From a virus, in IMG/VR virus record IMGVR_UViG_3300030107_003850, positions 1 through 23,026 of that record: a stretch of DNA of 23,026 nucleotides. One strand, 5' to 3'. The notes beneath the pieces are model-generated. The model did no database searches, was not told where the DNA came from, and saw only the letters and a list, made by a program, of their open reading frames with translations. Made by a program: the position numbers and the translations under genes. Positions 2,880 through 23,026 of this stretch are shown one piece after another (position 1 is the first letter of the stretch; every line of letters begins with the position of its first letter).

Positions 2880-5426
2880 ATGCCTATTCCATACAGACAA
2901 CATTTAAAATTAACAGGTGGCAATGATGATGGTACAAATAGTGATATATATACAGGTAATAAAATAAAAGTTGGTGATACTTTAAAAATATCTGGCACTG
3001 GTGATAATAATGGAATATATACAGTTTCTTCTATTACAACCAATAGCGATGATGCTTATTACGTATTAAAGGGAAGAAAAATTACAAATGAAAGTAATAA
3101 TACTAATCACGCACCTAAAATAGAAGTAATTAAAACAACGGGTGATAAATTGTGTGCTATGGCAAACTCAGGAACTGGTGCTGGAACTATTGGAATTTGG
3201 TCTAATAACGAAACAACCGATTATACAGCACGTGCTAATGGTTGGAACATAAATGCTATTACACCTACGTTATCTGGATTACCAGCAAAGTACATATATT
3301 TTTTTATAGATGAAGCGTTACGTAGTTGCAATATAAATGAAGAATGCGAATCATTAATTAAATGGTTTGGTTTTATACAGCGTGACCAGTTTGGCAACGC
3401 AGATGATAATAGTATTACTGCAAAATTTTGTGAATGGCAAGAGCATCCTAATACATTATCCCCACCACGTATGAGTGGTCAATATACTTTTGCCTATGGA
3501 ACAACAAATTTTACTTCATCTACATCTGCAAATTATTATCAAAATAATCGTGGTGTTGCTATTGTTAAAAAAAATAGCACCAGTAATTTAAGATTAAATC
3601 ATACACCCGGAACTTCTGTTACTACATTAAAGTTTGAAGATACTGGAGAAAATGAAATACTAGACCAGTCGTTTGTTGGTGAGGTTATAACAATAGGAAC
3701 TGATTTAGGTGTTGTACCAACAGAGTATTTATTTTGTAAAAAACCAGCAGGTTCTACTGGTAGTTCTATTCTTTATCAAAGAGCCTACGGAGGAGCATTA
3801 ACAGGAACTGCTCCTGATAGTTTACAGGATTTAGACACACCTGTTGTTGATAGGGGCTTGGGGTGGAATATTGCAGTTAGTGATGGCACTTCAGATGGAG
3901 ATTGGTTAGCAGATACGTATGAGTTTTATCAAACATTTGTTTATGATGGCAATCAAGAATCATTACCTGTGCAAATGGGTAATGGAGCATCTACTATTGC
4001 TACATTTAATCATACATCTGTTGGTGGTAAATCATTACGTGTTGCTGTATATGCTGACGTAGTTTATAGCGGTAGGATATCTGGCGGTAGAATATATATA
4101 AGACGTGCTGAATCAGATGATGAACTTACGTTATTATTAGACATAGATATAGTTCAAGGAGTTAGGAGTTCTATGACTGGAGACTACTCTACTTGGTCTT
4201 ATCAATCTGGAGAAGGTTTTTATTTTGTTCCAGATGCTGCTGGTAATTGCAAAGAACCTAATATAGATACGTACACAACTATAAATGGTTTTTCTAATCA
4301 AACAAAATTTATATCAATAGGAAAAATAAATGAACTATATAAAGATGTAGTTGTTGCTAATAGGAGAGCATTCATAGTAAATGTAAAAACATCTGGTTAT
4401 ACAGGAGAACTTGAAAAGTTTGGTGATAGATTAATGTATAGTGAGATAAATAGATTTGATACATTTTTAGAAAGTAATTTTATTGATGTTTCCAAGGGAG
4501 ACTATGGTGAATACGTAGCAATAAAAACATTCGCTGATAGACTTATTGCGTATAAACATAATCTTGTACATATAATAAACATAGCTAGTCCTAATCCTGC
4601 TAACTGGTACTTGGAAGATACATTACGTTACGGTGGTATAAATTTTAAGTATAGTGCTACAAATACTAAATATGGTGTGGTTTGGGTATCTGATACAGGA
4701 TGTTATTTATATGATGGAAGTCAAGTTACAAATTTAATTGAAAAAAAATTAGGTGTTAATGAAGAAACAAGTGGGGAAAGTGCTGTAATAAAATGGGCTG
4801 ATTTTGTAAATGGCAGTGCAAATATAAAAGATGCTATGATAGGCTATGAAGCTATGAGTAATTCACTAATAATAGTACGTAGCCCATCTGATAGTAGTAC
4901 TGTTAGCAATGAAGGTTACGTATATGATTTTAATACAGGGGGTTGGTCACACCTAAGCACTATTATTAATGATAGTGAAATAATTACTAATTTTTTTCAC
5001 GACTGGAATAATAATTTATGCATAGGAAAGCACGAAGATACAAATGAAATTGATATATTTAAGTTTTTACCAGTTCCTCTTAGTGCATCTGGTCAAGAAT
5101 TAGTTACTAGGGATATAGATTTTGGTGACCCATCTACTGTTAAAAAAGTTTATGCAGTGACATTAACATACAAATCATCAGCTAGTCAAGCAAATCCGTT
5201 AAAGTATGCTGTAAATGGAAAAAGACCTGCTAGTTATACTTCTTTTGCTACTAAAACATTAGGAATTACATCTGATTATGACGTTGCTACATTTACTGCA
5301 ACTAGTCCTATTTCTTGTGGTAGTATACAATTAAAAATTGAATTGCCTAGTTCTGGTACGTTTGAAATAAATGAAATGTCCATAGAATATAGAGTAATAC
5401 GTAATAAAACAGTAGCTGATGGCTAA
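2880..5426 (+). CDS. main part of a large beta-rich tail/neck virion protein
   Basis: 848 residues, beta-rich, glycine-, serine- and threonine-rich, with no signal or membrane segment. The middle and end show repeated blade-like segments (for example DRLMYSEINRFDTFL, DRLIAYKHNLVHIINI and GVVWVSDTGCYLYDG), as in propeller-like tail tubular or hub proteins. The C-terminus has a beta domain of the SFATKTLGITSDYD type before IEYRVIRNKT. ATG 2880 has no Shine-Dalgarno, which supports continuity with the preceding ORF in a shifted frame. The last eight bases overlap the fibre-like gene. Exact place in the tail is not resolved. Confidence 0.7.
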   Translation: MPIPYRQHLKLTGGNDDGTNSDIYTGNKIKVGDTLKISGTGDNNGIYTVSSITTNSDDAYYVLKGRKITNESNNTNHAPKIEVIKTTGDKLCAMANSGTGAGTIGIWSNNETTDYTARANGWNINAITPTLSGLPAKYIYFFIDEALRSCNINEECESLIKWFGFIQRDQFGNADDNSITAKFCEWQEHPNTLSPPRMSGQYTFAYGTTNFTSSTSANYYQNNRGVAIVKKNSTSNLRLNHTPGTSVTTLKFEDTGENEILDQSFVGEVITIGTDLGVVPTEYLFCKKPAGSTGSSILYQRAYGGALTGTAPDSLQDLDTPVVDRGLGWNIAVSDGTSDGDWLADTYEFYQTFVYDGNQESLPVQMGNGASTIATFNHTSVGGKSLRVAVYADVVYSGRISGGRIYIRRAESDDELTLLLDIDIVQGVRSSMTGDYSTWSYQSGEGFYFVPDAAGNCKEPNIDTYTTINGFSNQTKFISIGKINELYKDVVVANRRAFIVNVKTSGYTGELEKFGDRLMYSEINRFDTFLESNFIDVSKGDYGEYVAIKTFADRLIAYKHNLVHIINIASPNPANWYLEDTLRYGGINFKYSATNTKYGVVWVSDTGCYLYDGSQVTNLIEKKLGVNEETSGESAVIKWADFVNGSANIKDAMIGYEAMSNSLIIVRSPSDSSTVSNEGYVYDFNTGGWSHLSTIINDSEIITNFFHDWNNNLCIGKHEDTNEIDIFKFLPVPLSASGQELVTRDIDFGDPSTVKKVYAVTLTYKSSASQANPLKYAVNGKRPASYTSFATKTLGITSDYDVATFTATSPISCGSIQLKIELPSSGTFEINEMSIEYRVIRNKTVADG

Positions 5427-6069
5427 TAGAGACATACGTAGAGTAATAAATAGTAAACAAGATTCATTGGAATCTACAGGCAATCTTTCTATAAGCAGTA
5501 TGGCAGATGGTCAATTATCTATATCTAAATCGTCTAGTGAATTACTATCTATAAATAAAAAGAAATATGGTAGGTTATATAAGGGCTATCTGTCCTCTAG
5601 TGGTAATCAAGTAATAGATAAAAATCTTACTATTGGTGGTAATTTAAATGTAAAAGGAACAATTAATAAAGAGGTTATGATTTTTTATCATCCATTTAAT
5701 GCTACTGGCACAGGAAAAGTTTACCTTCCTTGGAGTTCAATAAGTGAAGCGTCATCTATTAATTATTATAATAATCTTATAGCTCCATATAGTGGTAGGC
5801 TATTAAAAGTTGTTGCTAGGTCAGCGGAAGCATTGGGTAATACTGTAATAGGATTTCATAAAGCATCTGACGGCACAGAAAGCCCTAGCACCACAGCAAC
5901 GGAAACAATAACTGTAGATATGTCAGCGGATGATACTAGTTATACTTTTGACTTTACAAAAACGTCTTCTTTTGATAGCGGTGACGTAGTTGCTGTATCT
6001 ATAGACCCAACTAATACACCAAATGATTCTAGAGTTACATCAGTTTGGTTATTTAATATATTAATATAA
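5419..6069 (+). CDS. tail fibre or appendage protein
   Basis: 216 residues. The N-terminal 60 residues (MANRDIRRVINSKQDSLEST..., then repeats of SIS-S pattern and LSINKKKYGRLYKGYLSS) resemble the virion-attachment region of small fibre proteins. The segment SGNQVIDKNLTIGGNLNVKG is the short beta-repeat typical of fibre shafts. The C-terminal half is a beta-rich, threonine- and serine-rich domain ending in WLFNILI, which could be the tip or a receptor-facing module. It overlaps the large tail gene by eight bases, consistent with a stem-and-fibre pair. The assignment rests on these repeat patterns, not a close relative. Confidence 0.6.
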   Translation: MANRDIRRVINSKQDSLESTGNLSISSMADGQLSISKSSSELLSINKKKYGRLYKGYLSSSGNQVIDKNLTIGGNLNVKGTINKEVMIFYHPFNATGTGKVYLPWSSISEASSINYYNNLIAPYSGRLLKVVARSAEALGNTVIGFHKASDGTESPSTTATETITVDMSADDTSYTFDFTKTSSFDSGDVVAVSIDPTNTPNDSRVTSVWLFNILI

Positions 6070-13676: not shown

Positions 13677-14024
13677 TTACCATTTTCCATTTTCGATTTT
13701 ATCATTTACCTTATCAATATGCCAAGAACCATTATCATTAAATAAATAATACTGAAAGCCTAATTCATCGTTATTAATGCGGTTATATAAAAAGCCTTCA
13801 CTCTCTAACATATCTAAGTTTGCCAAAGTATTATCATCAACTTTATAAACTTCTCCATGAACTTTACCACCTTTATCTTTTAATAGCAACGGAAAACTAA
13901 ATACTGATGGAACATAAATAGAATGGTCTTCTAGCACATCATCTCTTAAAAATTCACTACTTTCTAAGAAATGATGATTAGAACCACCCTTTTTTAAAGT
14001 TCCATATACAAATATATTATACAT
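13677..14024 (-). CDS. gamma-glutamylcyclotransferase-like (AIG2/YtfP) protein
   Basis: 115 residues from ATG 14024. The N-terminus MYNIFVYGTLKKGGSNHHFL is the hallmark YGTLxxG substrate loop of the gamma-glutamylcyclotransferase/AIG2 fold, and HGEVYKVDDNTLANLDMLE carries the conserved GE.Y and LDxxE region with the expected acidic residue. Family members release 5-oxoproline from gamma-glutamyl amines or peptides; the substrate of a phage version cannot be told. A longer frame from 14084 exists, but the first 20 residues would lie upstream of the conserved start, and ATG 14024 overlaps the upstream stop by eight bases like other genes here. It lies in a replication-type operon, so a role in modifying a small molecule, protein or base is possible. 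Confidence 0.8.
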   Translation of the reverse strand: MYNIFVYGTLKKGGSNHHFLESSEFLRDDVLEDHSIYVPSVFSFPLLLKDKGGKVHGEVYKVDDNTLANLDMLESEGFLYNRINNDELGFQYYLFNDNGSWHIDKVNDKIENGKW

Positions 14025-14553
14025 AATCTTGATTTTTGATAAGTTTAGTTGGTAAATAGTCAACTCCGCAGCAACTAGCAACATTTTGCAGCTCGTATAG
14101 ATTTCTTCCTAATCCAGTATCACCGCACTTTTCACAGTATCCAATATAAAAACCCATATCGTTCATTTTCCATCGTTTTTTATTAGATGTTGGTGAGTCT
14201 TTAAAATCCCAACTACTAATACACATTTTCCAATTCTTAATTTTAGTTTTGCCACGCATCCAACCACTCGCCTCATAATGATTATAAAACTTGGTAGCAT
14301 TCTTTTCAGGTTCATTAATACTTTTCTCACGAAAATATTTTATTACCATATCTAAGTCTTTTGGCTTTGCTTTATATTTATTAGTAGGTTTAATTGGTTT
14401 CTTCTTCACATTCTCATCTCCGGGGTCTCTAGGCGATACCCACTTTATCACATCCTTATTAAGCTCTGATTGTAAAGTAATTGTGTCTACCATCTTTTTG
14501 CAAAGAGTTTGTAACTCTGCAACAGATTTTTCTAGTTTAGCTATCTTGTCCAT
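14017..14553 (-). CDS. replisome-organiser-like DNA-binding protein with zinc knuckle
   Basis: 178 residues, with AAAGGAG before ATG 14553. A short N-terminal coiled coil (1-35) and a basic linker lead to the segment ATKFYNHYEASGWMRGKTKI, then KNWKMCISSW (about 86-115). This matches the C-terminal motif shared by many phage replication-initiation and DnaT/DnaD-like proteins (FYxxYxxxGWxxGxxxxxxWxxxxxxW). A zinc-binding pattern follows: CEKC at 140-143 and CC at 161-162. I infer a DNA-binding replication accessory protein. It overlaps both neighbours, so it is co-translated with the zinc-ribbon protein upstream. Confidence 0.65.
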   Translation of the reverse strand: MDKIAKLEKSVAELQTLCKKMVDTITLQSELNKDVIKWVSPRDPGDENVKKKPIKPTNKYKAKPKDLDMVIKYFREKSINEPEKNATKFYNHYEASGWMRGKTKIKNWKMCISSWDFKDSPTSNKKRWKMNDMGFYIGYCEKCGDTGLGRNLYELQNVASCCGVDYLPTKLIKNQDYV

Positions 14554-19679: not shown

Positions 19680-19812
19680 ATTTTCCTCCTATTTTATATG
19701 ATTCTTTATGTTCATCAATTAATTCCCTCGCCCAAACTTCTCCTAAGATTGAACTGAGTTCTGTAAAATTTTCTTCTTCTACAAGTTGATAAATGTATTT
19801 CATCTTACCCAT
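19666..19812 (-). CDS. 48-residue protein of unknown function
   Basis: ATG 19812 overlaps the stop of the upstream gene (TAATG), with GGAGAAAAAT just before it. The product (MGKMKYIYQLVEEENFTEL at its start, then a helix with SILGEVWARELIDEHK) is acidic and helical and ends YKIGGKYDSN. The ribosome site of the DUF932 gene is embedded in its last codons, and the two genes overlap by 14 bases, showing that it is translated. No family is recognised. Confidence 0.65.
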   Translation of the reverse strand: MGKMKYIYQLVEEENFTELSSILGEVWARELIDEHKESYKIGGKYDSN

Positions 19813-20066
19813 TATTTTTCTCCTTCTTTGTTTTTTTCTTCAAAAAATTCTGCCCTGTAAATTCCGCTCAATTCTTTCAATTTATCTAATTTTAATTGCT
19901 TTAGTTCTGAATATGGTAAAAAATTAAATAATGTTGCCAAATCTTCTAATCTACTTTGCATAAATGTATCCAATTCCTCATATTCTCTTTCCATAGCTCT
20001 TAAAATTCTACCTGCTAGTTCCCTATCAACTTTTATGTATTTTTCTTGTTTGTTTTTTTTATTCAC
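19812..20066 (-). CDS. 84-residue helical protein of unknown function
   Basis: GTG 20066 follows AAAAAGGAGAAAAATA, a very strong ribosome site, about 17 bases after the predicted start of RNA from the ECF-like promoter at 20089-20117. The product is almost wholly helical and charged (DRELAGRILRAMEREYEELD, later YSELKQLKLDKLKELSG), with basic ends. No cysteine or membrane segment. It is the first gene of the transcription unit leading to the DUF932 gene. Function unknown. Confidence 0.65.
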   Translation of the reverse strand: MNKKNKQEKYIKVDRELAGRILRAMEREYEELDTFMQSRLEDLATLFNFLPYSELKQLKLDKLKELSGIYRAEFFEEKNKEGEK

Positions 20067-20088: not shown

Positions 20089-20117
20089 ATATAACGCTAA
20101 TTCGGTAAAAAAGTTCC
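20089..20117 (-). promoter_or_regulatory. ECF-like promoter D
   Basis: On the minus strand: GGAAC (20117-20113), a T-run and 16 bases in all, then CGTTATAT (20096-20089). The same GGAAC-N16-CGTT(A)TA layout occurs at three other gene starts in the window. It overlaps the last codons of the upstream gene and stands about 20 bases before the GTG of the 84-residue gene. Confidence 0.75.
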
Positions 20118-20618: not shown

Positions 20619-20888
20619 TTAATAATTTTTAACTGATTTATAATTATTTACCCATGTAGGTTTCTTTTTTAACCAAGGGAAGAGAGCCTCTAATTTGTTC
20701 TTGCTACCTCTCGGATATTCATTATCACTTAAACACTCTATTTCAATTATCTCCCCATCTTCATCTTTAAAGTATTTATATACTTCAGTAACCCATATGT
20801 TCTTACTTTTATTAAAATAGATTAGTTCTTCTTTAATCCAATCAGAAGCCTCATAACCTTTTTTCCATATTTTTCCGTGTAATTTCAT
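20619..20888 (-). CDS. 89-residue protein of unknown function
   Basis: First gene after ECF-like promoter A; ATG 20888 follows GAAAGGAAACTAAA. The product is aromatic- and lysine-rich (MKLHGKIWKKGYEASDWIKE), with a beta-like acidic middle (KDEDGEIIEIECLSD) and a basic, tryptophan-bearing end (LFPWLKKKPTWVNNYK). The pattern suggests a compact alpha/beta domain; no family is recognised. Its own transcript start is predicted about 28 bases upstream. Confidence 0.65.
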   Translation of the reverse strand: MKLHGKIWKKGYEASDWIKEELIYFNKSKNIWVTEVYKYFKDEDGEIIEIECLSDNEYPRGSKNKLEALFPWLKKKPTWVNNYKSVKNY

Positions 20889-20921: not shown

Positions 20922-20950
20922 CTATAACGCACCAAGTTCAAAAAAGTTCC
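20922..20950 (-). promoter_or_regulatory. ECF-like promoter A
   Basis: On the minus strand: GGAAC (20950-20946), T-run within a 16-base spacer, CGTTATAG (20929-20922). It begins four bases after the stop of the nuclease-like gene and drives the 89-residue gene. It is the clearest of the four sites, since the CGTTATAG element is complete. Confidence 0.8.
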
Positions 20951-21699: not shown

Positions 21700-21883
21700 T
21701 TTCTTCCCTTTCTTTGATTTGTAAAAGTTTGGCAGTCAGGTAAACAAGGCTATCTAAAACTTCTTCTAGTGCCTCATTTACCCAATCTCTGCCATCGTTA
21801 ATATCTAACTCTTCGTTATATTCCCGCTTACCTTTCTCTAAGCGTTCTTCTATCATAGATATTATTTTTTTATTCATCTTCAT
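21683..21883 (-). CDS. short MazG-like (all-alpha NTP pyrophosphatase superfamily) protein
   Basis: 66 residues from ATG 21883 (or the next ATG at 21877, better spaced from AGGG). The helix pair RLEKGKREYNEELD and DWVNEALEEVLDSLVYLTAKL matches the E-x-x-E...E-x-x-D arrangement by which MazG-like and dUTPase-like helical enzymes bind magnesium and nucleotide. It is shorter than typical members (about 90-110 residues), so it is either a minimal dimeric form or a non-catalytic remnant. Role would be hydrolysis of non-standard or signal nucleotides. Overlaps both neighbours. Confidence 0.5.
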   Translation of the reverse strand: MKMNKKIISMIEERLEKGKREYNEELDINDGRDWVNEALEEVLDSLVYLTAKLLQIKEREENDNRK

Positions 21884-22058
21884 CCCTATTATACATAATA
21901 CTTAAAACATCATTATAATCATCATTAATATTACCAGATAAACCAGAACTTTTACTTTCGTATAATGCATATAGTAGATGTTCTACTTCATCGGCTGAAG
22001 AGTTAGACTCGTTAATAATCCAATCAGCTATCTTACTTATTTTATCGTGTATCTTCAT
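21870..22058 (-). CDS. 62-residue acidic helical protein of unknown function
   Basis: I start at ATG 22058, preceded by AAAGGATAATAACA; an in-frame ATG at 22148 would need translation through an inverted repeat without a ribosome site. The product (MKIHDKISKIADWIINESNS at its start, later DEVEHLLYALYES) is helical and acidic and ends MYNRDEDE. The palindrome ATTATGTATAAT lies in its last codons, five bases before the next gene. No family is recognised. Confidence 0.6.
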   Translation of the reverse strand: MKIHDKISKIADWIINESNSSADEVEHLLYALYESKSSGLSGNINDDYNDVLSIMYNRDEDE

Positions 22059-22081
22059 TGTTATTATCCTTTCTTGTTTAG

Positions 22082-22148
22082 ATGAGAAGAAGAACCTTTG
22101 CTGATTAACGAGTGTTGGGTTTTTATAGCCGTCAAAACTTCTTCTCAT
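22082..22148. promoter_or_regulatory. 11-bp inverted repeat in the leader of the 62-residue gene
   Basis: ATGAGAAGAAG (22082-22092) is the exact complement of CTTCTTCTCAT (22138-22148), with a 45-base loop. It lies wholly between two minus-strand genes, ending about 24 bases before the ATG at 22058. In RNA it would form a hairpin closing a 45-base loop, which may stabilise the message or act as a protein-binding or ribosome-access element. The 96-base gap holds no other clear signal. Confidence 0.55.
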
Positions 22149-22154
22149 TATTAT

Positions 22155-22340
22155 TTATTTATTCCTTCCTAAAGCACACCACATTAACTCGGGTGTAAGT
22201 CTTTTTAAATTACCTTCGGCACATCTATTTGCCATTCTGCGTACAAAACAAACTAATTCGTATTCAATACTATCCATAGCACCGCCACCAATTTGTACAC
22301 CTGCGTTTTTAAACTCTTTTTTTATTTGTGTTTTTGTCAT
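22155..22340 (-). CDS. 61-residue protein with possible histone fold
   Basis: First gene after ECF-like promoter B, with AAGGAGTAAATC before ATG 22340. Residues 5-14 (QIKKEFKNAG) resemble the first helix of archaeal histones (I...IKDAG); residues about 22-47 form a long helix with basic face (YELVCFVRRMANRCAEGN); and LKRLTPELMWCALGR matches the loop plus third helix (K-T-I-x-x-E-x-x-x-A-L). Helix-loop-long helix-loop-helix in about 55 residues is the histone fold. Two cysteines in the long helix are unusual. I infer a DNA-binding or dimer-forming protein; a helical regulator of another kind is the main alternative. Confidence 0.45.
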   Translation of the reverse strand: MTKTQIKKEFKNAGVQIGGGAMDSIEYELVCFVRRMANRCAEGNLKRLTPELMWCALGRNK

Positions 22341-22373
22341 GATTTACTCCTTGTTATTTACTTGCTTATATCT

Positions 22374-22402
22374 CTTTAACGCAGAACTTCAAAAAAAGTT
22401 CC
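22374..22402 (-). promoter_or_regulatory. ECF-like promoter B
   Basis: On the minus strand: GGAAC (22402-22398), a seven-T run in a 16-base spacer, CGTTAAAG (22381-22374). It lies between the 114-residue gene and the histone-fold-like gene and would start RNA about 30 bases before ATG 22340. Confidence 0.75.
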
Positions 22403-22421: not shown

Positions 22422-22766
22422 TTATATACCTCTCCAAGTTCTTTTATTTTCTTCTCTCTCTGCGAGTAATTCCTCGCCCCTAATATAAGTAAACATATTT
22501 ACCACTGATTCAGGGTTTGAAAAATCCGTATTTACCTCCCCGAAATTGTCGTTCTCATATTCTTTTATATAATCTATTACCTTGAAAGCGTTATCACCTA
22601 GCCATTTTTCAGCCTTGTAAGTACCTATTATATAATAGTCTTCATTAAATAAATGGAAATGTAAATCACCTTTTATAATATCCCAATCTCCATTTTCTTT
22701 CCACTCTTTTATAGAGTCTGTTATGTACTCGTTTAATTCATTATCTTTAAATGTCAATGTATTCAT
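22422..22766 (-). CDS. 114-residue acidic protein of unknown function
   Basis: ATG 22766 follows AAGGAGTAATAAA and promoter C. The product is acidic and aromatic-rich: helix ELNEYITDSIKEWKENGDWD, strands with LHFHLFNEDYYIIGTYKAEKW, then a helical C-terminus with NPESVVNMFTYIRGEELLAE. The LHFHLF segment could bind metal but is isolated. It is the first gene of the minus-strand run in this window. I recognise no family; early-expressed phage proteins that target host functions often look like this (small, acidic). Confidence 0.65.
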   Translation of the reverse strand: MNTLTFKDNELNEYITDSIKEWKENGDWDIIKGDLHFHLFNEDYYIIGTYKAEKWLGDNAFKVIDYIKEYENDNFGEVNTDFSNPESVVNMFTYIRGEELLAEREENKRTWRGI

Positions 22767-23026
22767 TTTATTACTCCTTGTTTTTGTTTATATACCTTAT
22801 ACCCAAAATAGCATAAAAAGTTCCAAAATAATTTAAAAAAGTTTGTAAAAAACTGGCTGGGGTGGGGAAGCTGGTGGGAAAAGTAACCAGCATATATATA
22901 ATTAAGTATAATTAAATGCGTCTTTAATAGGATTATGTATAATAGCACATACCCTTATAAATAGCCTAAAACCCGCCTAAATCGGCTACAACTTACCCGC
23001 TTGAATGAAATATATGTATATTACCT
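22767..23026. other. 260-base untranslated region at the head of the minus block
   Basis: It holds promoter C (22796-22824), a G-rich tract with possible G-quadruplex (22855-22879), a six-base inverted repeat GCTGGT/ACCAGC, an AT-only stretch, one copy of ATTATGTATAAT (22932-22943) and a pair of TTTAGGC repeats 11 bases apart on the minus strand near 22967-22983. No credible gene is seen. It may extend beyond the window and could be a divergent control region or an origin-like region, but nothing visible proves this. Confidence 0.5.
22796..22824 (-). promoter_or_regulatory. ECF-like promoter C
   Basis: On the minus strand: GGAAC (22824-22820), 16 bases, GGTATAAG (22803-22796). The -10 element begins GGTA instead of CGTT but keeps the spacing and the following TATA. 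It would start RNA about 25 bases before the ATG at 22766. Confidence 0.65.

Follow-up and report, generated by a model that had tools for sequence, protein, structure and literature searches.

Does the short minus-strand open reading frame in this stretch of DNA encode a phage histone and, if so, what would the protein do? The stretch (hereafter the window) comprises 23,026 nucleotides of a 24,593-base virus contig, and the reading frame specifies a product of 61 amino acids, MTKTQIKKEFKNAGVQIGGGAMDSIEYELVCFVRRMANRCAEGNLKRLTPELMWCALGRNK (Table 1).

The gene and its family

Analysis of IMG/VR contigs revealed seven that carry homologs with 92-98% amino acid identity to the 61-residue protein. 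Comparison of the window gene with its close homologs identified 10.5-17 synonymous and 1-10.5 non-synonymous differences (dS 0.37-0.76, dN 0.007-0.075; dN/dS approximately 0.01-0.18), a substitution pattern that indicates strong purifying selection. The plus strand across the same interval contains several stops in the one frame tested. Given the homologs and the low dN/dS, the reading frame is a functional gene and not a chance occurrence. Both patterns quoted in the preliminary description (FKNAG and RLTPELMWCAL) are present in the protein.

Table 1. Coordinates of the gene, its predicted structural elements and the upstream elements in the window
Feature	Position	Strand	Basis
Gene for the predicted histone-fold protein, 61 aa plus stop	22155..22340	minus	ORF, homologs, purifying selection, fold evidence
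Shine-Dalgarno sequence AAGGAG	22347..22352	minus	sequence
Predicted alpha1 helix, residues 3-12	22305..22334	minus	AlphaFold2, profile alignment
Predicted alpha2 helix, residues 21-42	22215..22280	minus	AlphaFold2; gap-free against alpha2 of alpha3 histones in profile alignment
Predicted loop L2, K46-R47	22200..22205	minus	profile alignment, conservation
Predicted alpha3 helix, residues 50-57 (8 residues)	22170..22193	minus	AlphaFold2
GGAAC-N16-CGTT, 62 nt upstream of the histone-fold ATG	22378..22402	minus	motif search; kept in relatives
Second GGAAC-N16-CGTT, 62 nt upstream of ORF 20619-20888	20926..20950	minus	motif search
Third GGAAC-N16-CGTT, 51 nt upstream of ORF 19812-20066	20093..20117	minus	motif search
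Degenerate fourth copy, GGAAC-N16-GGTA, 58 nt upstream of ORF 22422-22766	22784..22834	minus	motif search

Iterative searches, in which neighbors and then remote members served as queries, identified 59 distinct full sequences including the window protein, 61-69 residues long and 31-98% identical to it; the family alignment was built from these (approximately 34 effective sequences at 80%). The relatives, at least 58 distinct sequences, were found in viral contigs only, presumably mostly marine given the nature of the collection, and a single copy was present in each of 15 phage records checked. Near-invariant positions were F10, Q16, M36, R39, C40, G43, N44, K46, R47, L48, T49, A56 and G58. 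Two members (L153 8001-8207 and L159 1788-1979) have an L2 loop two residues longer, which reads Y-K-T-L-T instead of K-R-L-T and resembles the canonical RKT motif of histones more closely; a search for more K-T variants returned only known members.

No family in Pfam, PHROG or NCBIfam covers the protein, single-sequence searches of Pfam, PHROGs, the PDB and INPHARED phages gave no match, and individual family members had no significant match to any curated family. Short peptide patterns, which divergent relatives can escape, detected no relative in two scans of the genomes of 84,980 species of bacteria and archaea. Weak tblastn matches in Lysinibacillus phage LysYB1, Escherichia phage UE-S1 and an Oscillospiraceae phage lay within longer annotated genes and were dismissed as chance.

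Predicted fold and relationship to known histones

AlphaFold2 modeling with the 59-sequence alignment produced a confident single-chain structure (mean pLDDT 91.5) with the short-long-short topology of histones. A first run with eight near-identical sequences was poor (pLDDT 60) and the fold search made from it was meaningless; the confident model thus rests on the wider alignment. The helix pattern of the preliminary description was recovered, but its long helix is not basic, as residues 21-42 contain D23, E26, E28 and E42 against R34, R35 and R39. The protein as a whole is basic (net charge +5; family range +2 to +8). FKNAG aligned with the end of alpha1, as had been proposed, and extension of the profile register placed A56 at the conserved alpha3 alanine of HMfB (A63).

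A Foldseek search of the PDB returned histone-fold proteins at each of the top 50 positions. The first match was HLp of Leptospira perolatii (probability 1.00, TM 0.72/0.78, rmsd 1.9), followed by nucleosomal histones, CENP-T/W, HTkC (probability 0.97, TM 0.71/0.75) and NF-Y chains; E-values exceeded 0.05, as expected because the chain has only 61 residues. The best viral match in BFVD, the unannotated A0A516LUS5 (64 aa; TM 0.87/0.83), probably represents this single-domain type in the database. A second viral match, A0A516LIY4 (139 aa; TM 0.75/0.34), was also unannotated and is approximately 80 residues longer.

Profile comparison by hhalign of the 59-sequence alignment with an alignment of alpha3 histones (HBb, HLp and HTkC segments from the PDB matches together with five haloarchaeal proteins) scored 93.3% across 51 collinear columns, in register, at approximately 12% identity to the alpha3 bacterial histones. 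For reference, the alpha3-histone alignment scored 95.0% against nucleosomal histones. Negative controls stayed below 10%: column-shuffled family alignments reached at most 7.9% in 300 trials, the reversed alignment 0.2%, and 65 further families of small proteins encoded at these phage loci no more than 9.0%. When the family profile was compared directly with four nucleosomal histones the score was 1.2%; this direct comparison fails, and the link runs through the alpha3 histones. The nearest relatives of the family are the alpha3 histones, bacterial as well as archaeal, and not the classical nucleosomal histones of archaea, whose RKTxxxxD motif is also missing from the family. Divergent members gave weak collinear Pfam matches to the histone-fold families CENP-X (four members, best 0.0086) and CBFD_NFYB_HMF (0.085), and other unrelated families matched these members equally weakly.

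Could the protein be some other small helical protein that happens to resemble a histone? Many folds match short three-helix proteins, and the lack of a significant single-sequence match would fit. Model confidence, top structural matches that were exclusively histone-fold and a profile score far above the shuffles and above the 65 other phage families make this very improbable. Neither outcome that the preliminary description had named as refuting a histone fold, a confident model of another topology or profile matches confined to unrelated helical proteins, was obtained. The 61-residue protein very probably has a histone fold, and from this well-supported fold we infer its function below.

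Comparison with the alpha3 bacterial histones HBb (PDB 8FVX, 8CMP) and HLp (PDB 9QT0, 9QT1) revealed the same fold, the same gap-free short form of alpha2, lysines of alpha1 and L2 at DNA-contact sites, and a similar size of approximately 60 residues with no extra domain. In alpha3 histones the alpha2 helix is 4-5 residues shorter than in nucleosomal histones and the alpha3 helix is truncated to 3-4 residues (Schwab et al. 2024, PMC11390915). The protein described here differs from HBb and HLp in being phage-encoded, in having an alpha3 helix of eight residues against 3-4, and in reading x-K-R-L-T where they have RxTxxxD.

RxTxxxD occurs in FtF and bacterial dimers and is absent from the 'phage histones', which have a pair of lysines likely to bind DNA (K10 and K49) and a C-terminal helical tetramerization domain (Schwab et al. 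2024, PMC11390915). These 'phage histones' (example A0A2E7QIQ9), like the present protein, come from dsDNA phage contigs and lack RxTxxxD, and their lysines are 39 residues apart, as are K7 and K46 here, a comparison made with the published description only. None of our 59 family members has the tetramerization helix; all end just after alpha3, so the protein is not placed among the 'phage histones'. Set beside them by description, it may be a single-domain relative.

HTkC is a face-to-face tetramer (PMC11390915). Face-to-face archaeal histones, namely HTkC (PDB 9F2C) and haloarchaeal DUF1931/DNA-binding proteins, have the fold, the profile and the alpha1 lysine in common with the phage protein, which lacks their L2 motif RxTxxxxD (R47, T49 and D54 in D4GZE0). 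In the face-to-face archaeal histones, R41 and N45 are tetramer residues. An alternative is that the protein bridges or wraps DNA through tetramers, as has been proposed for the 'phage histones' and as face-to-face histones do, instead of acting as a simple dimeric bender. HTkC and HLp are both among the closest structural matches, an HLp-DNA complex is in the PDB, and one paper bears the title 'DNA Wrapping by a tetrameric bacterial histone' (PMC12701072). We consider this alternative rather improbable for a family of 61-69 residues that lacks the C-terminal tetramerization helix throughout.

What is known of histones in bacteriophages comes from one brief passage of a survey, and the literature searched yielded no experimental study of them. 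Phage histones as such are already known. The present family is new in being single-domain, in its altered L2 motif, in its breadth and in having no entry in curated libraries. As a compact, widespread and strongly conserved family with a clear gene context, it offers an easily expressed test case for a phage histone, and it is relevant to the movement of histone folds among phages, bacteria and archaea.

Candidate DNA contacts and proposed function

In the profile alignment, K7 corresponds to the conserved alpha1 lysine of alpha3 histones, and K46 and R47 fall on the K and T of the RKT motif, respectively, with L/V45 replacing R and L52 replacing D. The register of L2 is supported by the two longer-loop members, which read Y-K-T-L-T-P there. 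Conservation at the candidate DNA-contact positions was high: position 7 is K or R in 100% of members (K 81%, R 19%), K46 is kept in 97%, R47 in 94% (T in the two longer-loop members) and Q16 in 94%. The loop, V/L45-K46-R47-L48-T49-P50-E51-L52, is without RxTxxxD, which in most histones structures L2 and contacts DNA. As read from the alignment, this change (R to V/L, T to R, D to L) counts against a DNA bender.

The histone-fold gene lies in a minus-strand block of early type, opposite long plus-strand genes taken as structural. In the window this block also encodes two PD-(D/E)XK proteins, one exonuclease-like and one endonuclease-like, together with a DUF932 protein; PD-(D/E)XK nucleases are among the neighbors that recur on the strand of the histone-fold gene. 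Across 81 loci, recurrent neighbors on the same strand were a DnaB-like helicase with a primase C-terminal domain, a Sak single-strand annealing protein, Gp157, an HNH endonuclease and DUF932, and in many of these loci very long genes on the opposite strand come next. Such replication and recombination neighbors suggest a role in DNA metabolism rather than in the virion.

Based on its fold and its place beside DNA-replication and recombination genes, the protein is probably a homodimer that bends the DNA to which it binds and acts early in infection. The preliminary description had suggested that it could compact or shield phage DNA or bind host regulators. It would be a minimal histone, with a single alpha1-L1-alpha2-L2-alpha3 fold akin to alpha3 histones and no tail or extra domain, and by analogy with known single-fold histones a homodimer is the most likely form. 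Paired alpha1 lysines (K7/K8) together with loops L1 (Q16) and L2 (K46-R47) would provide a basic face that could bind double-stranded DNA with no strong sequence preference and bend it. With its own promoter-like element and its position in the replication and recombination block, the protein would be expected early, and would shape phage DNA during its replication in the manner of a nucleoid-type architectural protein. We infer each of these properties, from dimer to DNA binding, bending, timing and role.

The loss of RxTxxxD would also fit a different use of the fold, in which the dimer contacts a host or phage protein (RNA polymerase, a repressor or a recombinase) and does not bind DNA generally. 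Several eukaryotic histone-fold factors work through protein contacts, and small early phage proteins often target host factors. The most conserved block (M36-A37, R39-C40, G43-N44, L48-T49, A56 and G58), many of whose residues are non-basic, is a possible interface. Set against this, conservation is among the highest for basic residues at the canonical DNA-contact positions, and the gene is surrounded by DNA replication and recombination genes; protein contact is therefore an unlikely main role, and DNA bending by a homodimer is the reading we favor.

The promoter-like element and other features of the window

The preliminary description placed the gene under an ECF-like promoter, and at the level of sequence this was borne out by the repeated GGAAC-N16-CGTT element (GGAACTTTTT...), one copy of which lies upstream of the gene. 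Three exact copies were found in the window compared with 0.06 expected, all on the minus strand and 51-62 nt before gene starts. The related contig L012 has three sites at matching, syntenic positions, and the element is kept before the histone-fold gene in L014 and L015; it was not found before that gene in other branches of the family. In alphaproteobacteria, promoters of the EcfG-dependent general stress response have the consensus GGAAC-N16-CGTT (PMC3892343, PMC7083833). The window element equals this consensus and would be a candidate EcfG promoter in an alphaproteobacterial host; no Sigma70_r2 gene was detected in nine related phage records. A broader proposal is that single-domain histones form a large family, which marine tailed phages carry as early chromatin proteins, and that in the clade of the window phage the general-stress sigma factor EcfG of the host switches the gene on; we regard this combination as improbable. 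If true, host stress signaling would control phage chromatin.

Just after the histone-fold gene, an inverted repeat, GAGAAGAAG ... CTTCTTCTC, with a loop of approximately 50 nt, spans positions 22075-22150. The ORF listed at 21870-22148 begins inside this repeat, and a homolog suggests a later start near 22058. Elsewhere on the minus strand, positions 13677-14084 encode a gamma-glutamyl cyclotransferase (AIG2-like; Pfam E 9.9e-20). In L012, a close relative of the window phage, positions 4016-6066 contain a putative amidoligase gene and, after it, a gene with weak similarity to class-II glutamine amidotransferases. On the plus strand of the window, five successive ORFs between 940 and 2441 (940-1206, 1362-1682, 1669-1956, 1946-2206 and 2190-2441) encode small proteins that each appear to have one membrane segment and a charged part; they may be a set of proteins related to holins or spanins in type.
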